A DNA stretch of 64,000 nucleotides from Agelaius tricolor (lineage: Eukaryota; Chordata; Aves; Passeriformes; Icteridae), in assembly GCA_023055355.1 (NCBI GenBank), contig JALJCS010000038.1:4650001-4714000 (forward strand), given 5' to 3'. The translations under genes were made by a program, and so were the position numbers. Within the stretch, counting starts at the first letter, position 1; each line of letters starts with the position of its first letter. Of this stretch, positions 57,801-61,582 are shown one piece after another. Below the pieces are notes generated by a model. That model worked only from the letters and a program-made list of their open reading frames with translations, did not search any database and was not told where the DNA came from.

Positions 57801-60556
57801 GGCTGTCCCTTGCTCTCCCCAGGTGGCCGTTCCCCCCTCAGCAGTGTGGCAAGAACTTCACCTGCTTGAACGGTGGCAGGTGCATCACCGAGAGCTGGGG
57901 AGCCAACTGCTCCTGCAGGCCTGGCTTCACTGGAAGGAAGTAAGTGCTGCTTCACCCGCCTCCATGTCCTTGTGCCAGTCAAACAGCTGCTCCTAATGGG
58001 AACACGAGCTGTTGCTTGGAGCAGAGGGAGGCTTCAGATCATCCAGCTGCCAACACCAGTTTTTGCAGTGAGAACTGCTTCCAAGATTTTTCAAGCACAC
58101 TAGGCTGTGCTGGAGACCTGTGCTGGCCTCAGTGCCATAGAAACCACAACAGGAGGGTTGGTGTGAACAGGGGAGAATTTCAAATTGTTTGACTCCAGAG
58201 AAAGCACCTGGAGAAGCTGCAATGGCCGTTTTCAAACAAAAGAGGCTTTTTTAGAGTGGATGATCTTGTGTTCTATGGCACAAAAACATATATGACAATT
58301 CTAACACACTTTGTTTCCAGCTGTCAAATCAACATAAACGAGTGTGACCCGAACCCGTGCCAGAACGGGGGCACGTGCCAGGACTCGGAGAACAGATACG
58401 AGTGCGTGTGCAGCGCCAGCTTCACCGGCGAGCGCTGCGACATCAACGTAAGCACTGCCCGTCCCTGCGCCCTGCTGGGCCCTGCCTGCTCTGCCCTGCC
58501 TAGAGCACAGCTGGGCAATCCTCAGTGGGTGCTTTTCTCTGCAGTGCTGCTGCTTATTGGTCTCCAACACATAAATAACTGCAGTAAATGCTCCTCAGTA
58601 TCTGCATGTGCTGCCATATGGCTTTTGGGGCTGTCTCTGCACATCTCCATAGATTGCACAACTCTTTGGACAGAAATCCAACTCCTGCAGTTGACCCAGG
58701 TTCCTGGAGAGTGGAATTTCATTTGGTGTTTTATCTTGGATAAGAGTTACTAAACACCTTCCCTCTCCAAAGATCATCTGAGTAGAAATGGATGTTTGGA
58801 GAAGGGAGGTTGGATAAAGTCGGGCCAAGAGTGGTTCAGTTCTGTGTGAAAAGCTGAGTCCTGTCCCTGAGCTGCCCATCCTGTGTGCATAATCCAAGTG
58901 TTTGGGGTGGGGCTTCCTGGGGGGAGGTGGGATCCCTACCCCTGCTTTCTCTGTGAAGCTGTTGCATGGACAGGCAGCTTTTTGGGTAACCTGGGAATGT
59001 ACTAACCCATCCTGCATGGAAAGGGCTCTGTGCCAGGCAGGGTTTGCTGCTGTTGCTGTTACCCAGGGCTCTAATGCACGTGCCAAGGTCACCCTGACAT
59101 TTCCAGTTTGCATGCACAAACTCCTTCAGGCATCTCTATCTGCTCTGTCCCAGGACATTTCTGTGGATTCCTTGTATTCATTTTCATCACCCTCCCCTTG
59201 TTTTTCTTCACTCTTTCCTTTCCCTCCCTCCCGCCCTGGTGGGGCAGGGAGGGGCTGGGATGGTGCTCGTGTCCACCAGGGACAGCTGGAGCTCAGCTGA
59301 GCTCCCTTTGCTCTCTGCTCCCACAGCAGCAGCTCCGGGGCCCTGCTGGCCCCTGGTGGTGCAGGACTAAACCCGCATGCTCTGGAACTAACCCTGCCCA
59401 GCACCCGGCTTTGGACAGGCTCGGGGAATCCACCTGGACTCCAGGCACTTGAAAAGGGCAGAAGGGCTTCCAGATCCCCTGGGAATGTTCCTTCTTTGCT
59501 CTGTGACATGAGCACAGACTGAATGGCATCAAAAAACTGTAAATAGTCCAGCTTGAATTATTTTGGTTTTAGCTGTAAGGTGGCCGATACTATTGCTAGC
59601 AATAAGAAATATCTTATTTTTAAGCTTACTGTAATTTTAAAACTTTGTTTCATGACAAAAATTCCACAGTTGTTTTAGTATGTTGTTGTCTTCCATGCCA
59701 TCCTTGATTCCACCAGAATTAGGGAATTCTCATTTCCCTTCTCAGTACTTGGGCTTCTTATCATCTTCATCTCCCATCCATGTCCTGACCTCTTCAACAT
59801 CTTCCCCTTCCTGCTGCAAGTTCTGCAATTCTGTTTCACAGTTTAACAGCTTAATCAATTCTCTGCTTTGCCATTACAGGCATTAAGGCATCATTGAACT
59901 TTTTTTTAGTATCATTCCCCTGCTTGGAGAAATTTTTTGGGGTTACTGAAAATTCACATTACTCTGCATTAACTTTAAAGTTTTTGGGTTGTTTTGTTTT
60001 TTTTGTTTGTTTGTTTGTTTGTTGATTTGGTTTTTTGGGGTTTTTTGATGTGTGTTTTTTTGTTTTTGTTTTGCAACACTGGTCACAACTTTGCCAGTGC
60101 AACCTGTGTGTTTTAGTCTGATATTGATAAGAAGGCACCTTTAAAGACTCCCACTGTAGATGCTGAGTAAACTGGCATTTACATCTTAAGGGGCTGTCTT
60201 GCTGTGAAAAAGTGCTGTTTTTTGCTTTTCTACAAACCTTTTTCTCTCTAATCCGACCACTTTGGTCAGTTCTTGCAGTTATTGTAACCGCTGGGGTTTC
60301 ATTGTTTCTCCATTAATTTCTTTTACAGAAAGGGACTCCAGGTGCTCTCTTCCCCTCCCCACTAATTGAAGTAGCTGTCCCTGTAGCCTGTGGCTCTGTG
60401 CTGCTCCTCAGTATTGCTCTCATATTCATGGTTCTCACGGCAAGGAAGAGGCGCCAGTCCGAGGGGACCTACAGCCCGAGCCAGCAGGAGGTGGCAGGAG
60501 CTCGGCTGGAGATGGACAGTGTGCTAAAGGTGCCGCCCGAAGAGCGCCTGATCTAG
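30794..60556 (+). CDS. CRB2: Crumbs homolog 2, 13 coding exons, 1468 aa (whole gene span)
   Basis: This encodes a type I transmembrane apical-polarity protein. In the known family, Crumbs recruits PALS1/PATJ through its C-terminal ERLI and FERM proteins through its juxtamembrane tail, defining the apical membrane of epithelia, retina and podocytes. Thirteen exons (30794-30866, 39509-40207, 41853-42048, 42445-42584, 43041-43223, 44107-44220, 52538-53476, 54206-54762, 55604-55769, 56179-57046, 57823-57939, 58321-58447, 60329-60556) join in frame to 4407 nt. Domain order: signal peptide 1-25; EGF-like repeats 1-13 (about 35-557); laminin G1 ~563-742; EGF 742-780; laminin G2 ~785-960; one complete and one half EGF to ~1023; laminin G3 ~1027-1199; five EGFs 1205-1390; transmembrane ~1408-1431; tail to 1468. 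Many EGFs carry the CxSxPC O-glucose consensus. CRB2 rather than CRB1 is chosen from PAATFGL after the EGF between laminin G1 and G2, from WNDFHC and PANFTG in the EGF after laminin G2, and from the [20 protein letters not shown] tail. It is longer than human CRB2 (1285 aa as I recall), mainly from extra N-terminal EGFs. Confidence 0.95.
30867..39508 (+). other. CRB2 intron 1 (8.6 kb), no other gene seen
   Basis: The intron runs from GTAAGT to TTCTCATCAG. It is AT-rich with a long pyrimidine tract near 32.06-32.10 kb and a short GTCAGTCC-type tandem repeat near 37.71-37.75 kb. The reading frame stays open for about 260 bases upstream of exon 2, but only from a non-ATG codon. This looks like chance rather than an alternative start. 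Confidence 0.75.
39509..40207 (+). CDS. CRB2: CRB2 exon 2: six tandem EGF-like repeats
   Basis: A single 699-nt exon encodes residues 25-257. Six cysteine clusters are visible, starting [43 protein letters not shown] and [10 protein letters not shown]. The last two have the DIDEC calcium-binding form. The first two are shorter or irregular and lack that motif. Base composition shifts along the exon, moderate at the start and strongly GC- and CpG-rich after about 39.84 kb. The donor is GTACGG, weaker than the others. Entry and exit are both phase 1. Confidence 0.95.
41853..42048 (+). CDS. CRB2: CRB2 exon 3: EGF-like repeats 7 and 8 (part)
   Basis: The exon follows a T-rich tract ending AACAAAG. 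It completes the sixth EGF with GVNC, then encodes [16 protein letters not shown] and [17 protein letters not shown], both of calcium-binding type. It exits in phase 2 at GTGAGA, splitting a Ser codon with exon 4. Codon usage is less GC-biased than in exon 2. Confidence 0.95.
42445..42584 (+). CDS. CRB2: CRB2 exon 4: end of EGF 8 and most of EGF 9
   Basis: The acceptor is TGCCCCACAG. The exon encodes [16 protein letters not shown], then [17 protein letters not shown] and GYSCACWPG. The motif [15 protein letters not shown] recalls the same position in human CRB2. The exon ends in phase 1 at GTGGGC, a less usual but acceptable donor. Confidence 0.95.
43041..43223 (+). CDS. CRB2: CRB2 exon 5: EGF-like repeat 10 with a long internal insertion
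   Basis: It encodes [18 protein letters not shown], then an unusually long loop ([10 protein letters not shown] to [11 protein letters not shown]) between the third and fourth cysteines. The loop carries one NFS glycosylation sequon. A loop of similar length at the same place exists in human CRB2 as I recall it, so it is a family feature. It exits in phase 1 at GTGAGC. Confidence 0.95.
44107..44220 (+). CDS. CRB2: CRB2 exon 6: EGF-like repeat 11
   Basis: It encodes one calcium-binding EGF ([32 protein letters not shown]) between CACTTTCAG and GTAACC. It is a symmetrical phase 1-1 exon, so skipping it would remove one EGF without a frameshift. Confidence 0.95.
44221..52537 (+). other. CRB2 intron 6 (8.3 kb), no other gene seen
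   Basis: This long intron separates the EGF array from the exon that begins the laminin G region. Apart from the CpG-rich block near 49.2-49.6 kb it is ordinary AT-rich sequence. A 251-codon open frame at 48331-49086 has no recognisable domain and looks like chance. Confidence 0.75.
49185..49640. promoter_or_regulatory. CpG-rich block within CRB2 intron 6, candidate regulatory element
   Basis: CpG density rises well above the surrounding intron; about 13 CpGs lie between roughly 49415 and 49560. The block then ends in an AT-rich segment with ATAATCATAATACAATCC followed by TAATTAGGAT, homeodomain- and OTX-like strings. No exon is evident. It could be an internal promoter or an enhancer, but this rests on composition alone. 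Confidence 0.4.
52538..53476 (+). CDS. CRB2: CRB2 exon 7: EGF 12-13, laminin G1, EGF 14
   Basis: This 939-nt exon covers residues 469-781. It carries [17 protein letters not shown], the irregular [17 protein letters not shown], then a laminin G domain (about 563-742) with [34 protein letters not shown] and the closing [13 protein letters not shown] following [22 protein letters not shown], ends the exon. VQLTGCQ and [12 protein letters not shown] match the corresponding human CRB2 positions as I recall them. Entry and exit are phase 1, the exit at GTAAGT. Confidence 0.95.
54206..54762 (+). CDS. CRB2: CRB2 exon 8: laminin G2
   Basis: The exon begins after TCTCTTCCAG and encodes [12 protein letters not shown], then a laminin G domain (about 785-960) with [29 protein letters not shown] and [12 protein letters not shown], closing at [17 protein letters not shown] after an EGF is diagnostic of CRB2 in my recollection. 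It ends in phase 0 at GTGTGT, a weaker donor. Confidence 0.95.
55604..55769 (+). CDS. CRB2: CRB2 exon 9: EGF 15 and a half EGF
   Basis: It starts in phase 0 after TTTGTTTTTCAG. It encodes [19 protein letters not shown] and [11 protein letters not shown], a full EGF with the cysteine at the end of exon 8. Next comes [15 protein letters not shown], an incomplete EGF ending at GYVC that runs straight into laminin G3. The exit is phase 1 at GTAAGT. Confidence 0.95.
56179..57046 (+). CDS. CRB2: CRB2 exon 10: laminin G3 and EGF 17-19
   Basis: This 868-nt exon covers residues 1023-1311. Laminin G3 (about 1027-1199) includes [41 protein letters not shown] and [15 protein letters not shown]. Three EGFs follow: [27 protein letters not shown] and [15 protein letters not shown]. 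The first ~220 nt use AT-rich codons; from about 56.40 kb the exon becomes strongly GC- and CpG-rich. It exits in phase 2 at GTAAGT. Confidence 0.95.
57823..57939 (+). CDS. CRB2: CRB2 exon 11: EGF-like repeat 20
   Basis: The acceptor is TCTCCCCAG and the donor GTAAGT, both phase 2. It encodes [19 protein letters not shown] and [12 protein letters not shown], a short EGF without the DxDEC calcium-binding motif. The final cysteine comes from exon 12. Confidence 0.93.
58321..58447 (+). CDS. CRB2: CRB2 exon 12: membrane-proximal EGF 21
   Basis: The exon follows TTTGTTTCCAG. It encodes [28 protein letters not shown] and [11 protein letters not shown], the last EGF before the membrane. It ends in phase 0 at GTAAGC. 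This donor must join the terminal exon, and two phase-0 terminal exons lie downstream. Confidence 0.95.
58448..60328 (+). other. CRB2 intron 12 (1.9 kb)
   Basis: No further EGF exon is visible. Retaining the intron would add about 100 codons ending near 58753, which look like chance sequence. A T/G-rich simple repeat lies near the 3' end. Confidence 0.75.
59981..60073. repeat. T/G-rich simple repeat with (GTTT)n core
   Basis: The tract is built of T runs broken by single or few G, including about five GTTT units. It lies ~250 bp upstream of the acceptor of the CRB2-type terminal exon, so it may influence splicing there, but it is ordinary low-complexity sequence. Confidence 0.85.
60329..60556 (+). 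CDS. CRB2: CRB2 exon 13: transmembrane helix and CRB2-type cytoplasmic tail
   Basis: The acceptor is TTTCTTTTACAG, phase 0. It encodes residues 1394-1468: a short linker ([11 protein letters not shown]), a transmembrane helix in the segment [16 protein letters not shown]...VLTA, a basic stop-transfer RKRR, and the tail [20 protein letters not shown] then [12 protein letters not shown] and TAG. GTYSPS is the FERM-binding segment and ERLI the PDZ ligand for PALS1/PAR6 in the known family. The wording is that of vertebrate CRB2. Confidence 0.95.

Positions 60557-61582: not shown

Follow-up and report, generated by a model that had tools for sequence, protein, structure and literature searches.

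A second, CRB1-like terminal exon at the CRB2 locus of Agelaius tricolor: a conserved candidate for an alternative last exon

How should a gene be read that offers two complete ends to one and the same ectodomain? This question is raised by the CRB2 locus of the songbird Agelaius tricolor, which we analysed in a window of 64,000 nucleotides (assembly GCA_023055355.1, contig JALJCS010000038.1, positions 4,650,001 to 4,714,000). On the plus strand of the window lies the cell-polarity gene CRB2, the sister of CRB1. Its signal-peptide exon was found near 30794, and its 3' end holds two terminal exons, here called A and B. As suggested by the anatomy of these exons, the conservation of the second tail and its relation to CRB1, CRB2 of this songbird very probably has two alternative last exons in tandem; exon B and the CRB1 tail may derive from one ancestral exon that stood beside an A-type exon. 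Alternative C-terminal ends are already known in the Crumbs family, and models of the tail-B isoform of CRB2 are present in public protein databases; what is new, in our best reading, is a conserved alternative last exon of CRB2, a variation on a known habit of the family.

Two terminal exons behind one ectodomain

The original prediction had placed two complete terminal exons at the 3' end of the gene, each with a phase-0 acceptor, a transmembrane helix and ERLI followed at once by a stop codon, and both the translations and the splice sites agree with it. The elements concerned are the following, in window positions:

60329..60556, + strand: terminal exon A, CRB2-type transmembrane helix and tail, 75 aa, ending in ERLI-TAG (translation, acceptor)
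60815..60820, + strand: ATTAAA, candidate poly(A) signal of exon A, 259 nt past the stop
61358..61366, + strand: tandem acceptor of exon B, ccacag/CAG (sequence; bird gene models)
61364..61582, + strand: terminal exon B, second transmembrane helix and CRB1-like tail, 72 aa, ending in ERLI-TGA (translation, acceptor, conservation)
61874..61879, + strand: ATTAAA, candidate poly(A) signal of exon B, 292 nt past the stop

Both acceptors, ...ttttacag/AAA for A and ...taccacag/CAG for B, are of phase 0 and in frame after exon 12, which ends in phase 0 at 58447 with the donor AAC/GTAAGC. Their pyrimidine content (13/17 for A, 12/17 for B) lies among the values of ten other acceptors of CRB2 (8-16/17), which marks both as sites of ordinary quality. 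The acceptor of exon B is a tandem NAGNAG (CAG/CAG), so that tail B may start with either QRVWAH or RVWAH, and both positions were found in bird gene models (QRVWAH/QPVWAH or RVWAH/PVWAH). The two ATTAAA motifs expected 259-292 nt past the stops are present at 60815 and 61874; further candidate poly(A) signals lie 3' of exon B at 62555, 63624 and 63943, and the signal serving B could be the one at 61874 or any of these. The anatomy of an alternative last exon, namely a right-phase acceptor, a stop and a candidate poly(A) signal, was thus found in A and B alike. About 260 bases 5' of exon A there is a long T/GT-rich tract (a tandem repeat, 59980-60067), where splicing factors might bind and so promote or reduce the use of exon A.

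The remainder of the gene was traced upstream of these exons:

30794..30868, + strand: CRB2 exon 1, signal-peptide coding part (tblastn with bird CRB2 N-termini; 3' end approximate)
39509..58447, + strand: CRB2 exons 2-12, EGF and laminin-G ectodomain (open frames, splice sites, Pfam)
39509-40207, 41853-42048, 42445-42584, 43041-43223, 44107-44220, 52538-53476, + strand: CRB2 exons 2-7
54206-54762, 55604-55769, 56179-57046, 57823-57939, 58321-58447, + strand: CRB2 exons 8-12

Joined together, these exons encode a protein in which Pfam recognizes 14 EGF stretches and 3 Laminin_G_2 stretches, the ectodomain of a Crumbs protein of CRB1/CRB2 type. From exon 2 onward the joins give 1443 residues with tail A and 1440 with tail B; once the exon-1 match (30794-30868) is added, they agree with the 1468 and 1465 residues given by the original prediction.

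Each of the two window tails contains the FERM-binding motif RxxxGxYxPS and ends in the PDZ-binding motif ERLI. They have 23 of 38 tail residues in common (15/38 differ), and the coding parts of A and B were detected by the repeat search as a 110-nt direct repeat (70%). Because of these shared residues, this repeat and the 78 listed CRB2 rows that end in tail B (see below), the pairing of A and B is not a matter of chance. A Pfam scan of the two tails alone returned no family above the cut-off. In the PDB sequence search the fly Crumbs tail (4wsi, 4yl8) was the one convincing relative of either tail, and a second match of tail A (E 0.98) was taken as chance.

Conservation and motifs of tail B

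Tail B was searched for in a protein database clustered at 90% identity, in which a B isoform may sit behind an A representative. Rows were taken from the best 120 of 193 matches to the last 75 residues of the tail-B product and from the best 120 of 168 matches to an axolotl tail; a third query, a hagfish tail, gave 19 matches in total, 6 of them tetrapod CRB2-B. The paralogue was called by the BLAST score of the ectodomain against the window CRB2 and against one bird CRB1. Among the matches listed, at least 78 CRB2 gene models end in tail B (58 from birds, cassowary and tinamou through songbirds, 3 from turtles, 3 from squamates and 14 from amphibians), and in all 78 the ectodomain scores higher with the window CRB2 than with the bird CRB1. 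For comparison we used 67 CRB1 rows, which include several isoforms of one species or of close relatives.

All 78 listed B rows and all 67 CRB1 rows end in ERLI, and R...G.Y.PS fits 77/78 and 67/67 of them, respectively. Tail identity to window B is 36-38/38 in the birds, 35-36 in the turtles, 33-35 in the squamates and 30-34 in the amphibians. The amphibian rows retain this identity despite ectodomains that are only 49-54% identical to that of the window. In the comparison tail, that of CRB1, a bird and a salamander agree at 34/38 residues with ectodomains at 62%, and a bird and a macaque at 32/38 with ectodomains at 63%. Since tail B is nearly constant at the level of protein identity while the ectodomains diverge, we infer purifying selection on exon B since before the split of amphibians and amniotes. 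The strong constraint (ERLI in 78/78, tail identity of 30-38/38) is in line with the selection on the second exon that had been claimed from the window alone. Exon 12 is joined to exon B in full-length gene models from all four of these groups, and several of the listed rows bear the name 'protein crumbs homolog 2 isoform X2', given to automated models. As far as sequence comparison can tell, exon B probably makes a real form of the CRB2 protein. No fish, mammal or crocodilian CRB2 with tail B was found among the matches listed for the three tail queries, and tail B is likely absent from CRB2 of mammals and ray-finned fish.

PALS1, PAR6 and EPB41L5 are partners of the Crumbs tail. In the window, the segment RATQGTY of tail B fits the pattern TxGTY, as do 71/78 listed B rows and 60/67 CRB1 rows, and tail A reads SxGTY, with no literal fit; judged by its letters, the TxGTY of window tail B is the bilaterian pattern. 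The FERM-binding motif RxxxGxYxPS and the aPKC sites TxGTY are given in the excerpt of PMC5968619, and the motifs named there as the signature of Crumbs are retained with both tails. According to the excerpt of PMC2927502, change of Y10 and E16 of zebrafish Crb2a abolished the binding of FERM proteins, and the equivalents of these residues (Y7 and E13 in the tail numbering used here) are present in 78/78 listed B rows. The second aPKC threonine of tail B (GTYSPS) has been replaced by a basic residue in 6/78 listed rows, apparently several times. Arginine occurs in two galliform and two hummingbird rows and in one row of the frog Gastrophryne (P0043, P0056, P0057, P0059, P0079), and lysine in the frog Ascaphus (P0123). 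These may be lineages in which tail B escaped one aPKC control.

The membrane helix of B is less uniform than its tail. Gly, Ala and Ser make up 58% of it in the window. Three bird rows have 54-62%, one turtle and two squamate rows 46-54%, two salamander rows 42-50% and three frog rows 27-31%; the comparison helices have 27% (tail A) and 19-31% (seven CRB1 rows). GxxxG occurs in the helices of five amphibian B rows and in none of six amniote B rows. A helix rich in small residues failed as a mark of all B tails on account of the three frog rows. Hence, helix packing could differ between A and B, with no single rule for all B tails.

Origin of the exon pair and alternative readings

The bird's own assembly (1.16 Gb) was searched with tail B at E<=0.001. 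Besides the query itself, this yielded two matches, one to tail A (51%) and one, on a different contig, to a CRB1 exon (63%); no second copy of tail B was found at this threshold, and the Crumbs tail exons found in the assembly are three, CRB2-A, CRB2-B and CRB1. A CRB3-like tail was not among the five matches of tail A at E<=10, a weak negative as such a search can miss it. Tail B and the bird's own CRB1 tail have 26/38 residues and 79/114 bases in common (12 residues and 35 nt differ), and 14 of the 26 common residues are encoded by different codons, which is a strong argument against a recent copy of, or conversion by, CRB1. The last exon of CRB1 apparently starts in phase 0, like CRB2 A and B, and the 29.7 kb examined around it revealed no further tail exon. 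This CRB1 exon (G000:C11:8955968-8956162) encodes the tail KDGSRLEMWDMLQ, which differs from that of the remaining bird CRB1 rows examined (KEGSRVEMWNMVQ or similar), in contrast to the CRB2 tail B of this bird, which is the common bird form.

The residues of the 78 listed B rows, the 67 CRB1 rows, the hagfish tail, tail A and the fly tail were compared in a common numbering. R11 occurs in 77/78 and K14, V19 and W22 in 78/78 listed B rows; in CRB1 the counts are 67/67 for R11, K14 and W22 and 66/67 for V19. All four are present in the hagfish tail, and tail A and the fly tail have none of them. Together with the 26/38 residues above, this bears out the description of the second tail as CRB1-like. 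V24 and K26, which are as in fly and tail A, are found in 78/78 listed B rows vs 0/67 CRB1 rows, and the hagfish tail has V24 and not K26. Trees were computed from window tail B, 14/78 B rows, 16/67 CRB1 rows, one hagfish row and one tail-A row, with the fly row in the 38-residue tree only. The latter (34 rows) gave the order fly, A and then B beside hagfish plus CRB1, with supports of 91/87 for B+CRB1+hagfish, 91/82 for hagfish+CRB1, 91/92 for CRB1 and 70/59 for B. With the helix added (33 rows, 70 columns), CRB1 received 96/94 and hagfish+CRB1 94/95. Tail B lies outside CRB1, and outside hagfish+CRB1, in both trees.

The residue patterns and the short trees speak for B as a sister of long standing to the CRB1 tail. 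An exon pair that predates the separation of CRB1 and CRB2 is thus the simplest explanation and is favoured here. The common ancestor of the two genes would then have had an A-type exon and, next to it, the exon from which both exon B and the CRB1 tail are derived. CRB1 would have kept B alone, annotated CRB2 of mammals and fish apparently A alone, and sauropsid and amphibian CRB2 both, still choosing between a 'CRB2' and a 'CRB1' signalling end on one ectodomain. For this history in full we see the chances as about even.

Several points weigh against the reading proposed here. The B isoforms in the database are gene predictions, and many bird B rows are single unnumbered models ('CRUM1 protein, partial') in which the gene was simply ended at B. 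The Melospiza model P0003 holds A and B in one protein with two helices, and models P0060, P0064 and P0065 seem to run past the exon-12 donor before reaching B; such oddities imply that gene models can be unreliable. Fish, mammals and crocodilians cannot be called empty of tail B, which clustering and the best-120 lists may have concealed. The trees were built from no more than 38 or 70 columns, few of their branches are firm, tail A enters as one row, and B does not form a single group once the helix is added. When B was constrained to group with tetrapod CRB1, the loss was 8.0 and 10.7 log units with p-AU of 0.074 and 0.070, so that this grouping is disfavoured and yet not rejected at 5%; the claim that the pair predates the split, favoured by residue patterns and trees, stands short of proof. 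B forced with A gave p-AU 0.128 (38-residue tree). The hagfish row, named CRB1-like, is ambiguous as to paralogue, its ectodomain scoring 267 bits with CRB2 vs 246 with CRB1. As for P0003, it splices from inside exon A (after ...DSVLK) into B, and the matching window site (60529/60530, gtgccg) is a weak donor; the fusion is probably a prediction error.

The main rival to an old exon pair is a later transfer, in which a genomic copy of the CRB1 terminal exon entered the 3' end of CRB2 on the stem lineage of tetrapods and was then partly converted by A. It would account for the R11, K14, V19 and W22 that tail B shares with CRB1 and for the absence of a fish CRB2-B among the matches listed for the three queries, and it agrees with the p-AU values just given. 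However, V24 and K26, present in every listed B row and in no CRB1 row, and the grouping of CRB1 by itself, with hagfish nearest and B outside, both demand the conversion by A, and we regard this transfer as rather unlikely. An altogether different reading accepts the conservation of exon B and holds that it seldom or never serves as the tail of full-length CRB2, but belongs to a short product with its own start or to a read-through 3' UTR. A precedent is the zebrafish Crb2b-sf, a short form with its own start described in the excerpt of PMC7044448; against this, the B acceptor is in phase with exon 12, and the join between exon 12 and B is present in full-length models of birds, turtles, squamates and amphibians, which makes the short product improbable. 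It is scarcely credible that exon B arose as a recent CRB1 retrocopy or as an assembly duplicate of that gene, a possibility raised along with the original prediction. Only the resemblance to CRB1 speaks for it, whereas exon B has an intact acceptor preceded by an intron, ends CRB2 models from frogs to birds among the matches listed, and departs from the bird's own CRB1 tail in residues, bases and codons as given above; the assembly search and the codon comparison led us to reject it.

Predicted forms of CRB2 and known Crumbs isoforms

The ectodomain exons of CRB2 end in phase 0, and either terminal exon supplies an in-frame helix, a Crumbs tail with both known binding motifs, and a stop. The choice between them would be made through splicing and 3'-end processing, as the anatomy suggests, and since each exon has its own candidate poly(A) signal, it would amount to a choice between using and skipping exon A. 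Use of the acceptor at 60329 and the poly(A) signal at 60815 would yield the canonical tail-A protein; skipping of exon A, with 58447 joined to 61364 and a later poly(A) signal (61874 being the nearest), would yield a tail-B protein of about 1465 aa. Judging from their motifs, both proteins would reach the apical membrane and bind PALS1/PAR6 via ERLI and FERM proteins via R...G.Y.PS, and what would set the two forms apart is their membrane helix and the segment regulated by aPKC.

Tail B shares with the canonical CRB2 tail (exon A) the gene, the ectodomain, the intron phase, the FERM-binding motif and ERLI, and differs from it by another helix and the 15/38 tail residues. With the CRB1 tail (CRB1-A) it has the 26/38 residues, the four residues found in 66-67/67 CRB1 rows and apparently the phase 0 in common, and it differs in V24, in K26 and in standing on a CRB2 ectodomain. 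Human CRB2 has 13 exons. The excerpt of PMC5380682 tabulates four human CRB2 transcripts that differ in exon 9 or at the 5' end, none of these four being described with a second tail. Several Crumbs isoforms are comparable, each as described in the excerpt of the paper cited. CRB1-B is likewise made by an alternative last exon that gives another transmembrane/intracellular end, conserved across vertebrate species, but the two conserved motifs are missing from it and it begins with a first exon of its own (PMC7335077), whereas tail B has both motifs and follows the common exon 12. In CRB3A/CRB3B, alternative splicing of the last exon also changes the Crumbs C-terminus, with ERLI replaced by CLPI in CRB3B (PMC7456964), whereas both window CRB2 tails end in ERLI. 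The secreted CRB2S, also an alternative isoform of CRB2, arises from an additional exon 9a, whose stop precedes the membrane helix (PMC7108746), whereas the tail-B form is predicted to be membrane-anchored. Drosophila Crb_A/Crb_C likewise owe their diversity to exon choice, and the abstract of PMC5312091 gives a difference in EGF repeats only and no alternative tail. Among the papers listed from the open-access PMC literature, judged by title and start of abstract and with most subscription papers outside it, none describes a further tail exon of CRB2; nor was anything on point listed there on CRB1/CRB2 chimeras, on GxxxG in Crumbs or, apart from one unhelpful review, on aPKC and FERM.

In mammals CRB1 and CRB2 have different jobs, which may be due in part to the ectodomain and in part to the tail. 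If the reading proposed here is true, birds and frogs would provide, in their embryos, a naturally occurring exchange of tails on a constant ectodomain within one gene, and each exon could be removed alone. Work on these animals with reagents raised against the mammalian (tail A) end would then overlook the second form. How CRB1 and CRB2 divide their labour would, moreover, become a case in which the sorting of exons after a gene duplication can be tested.

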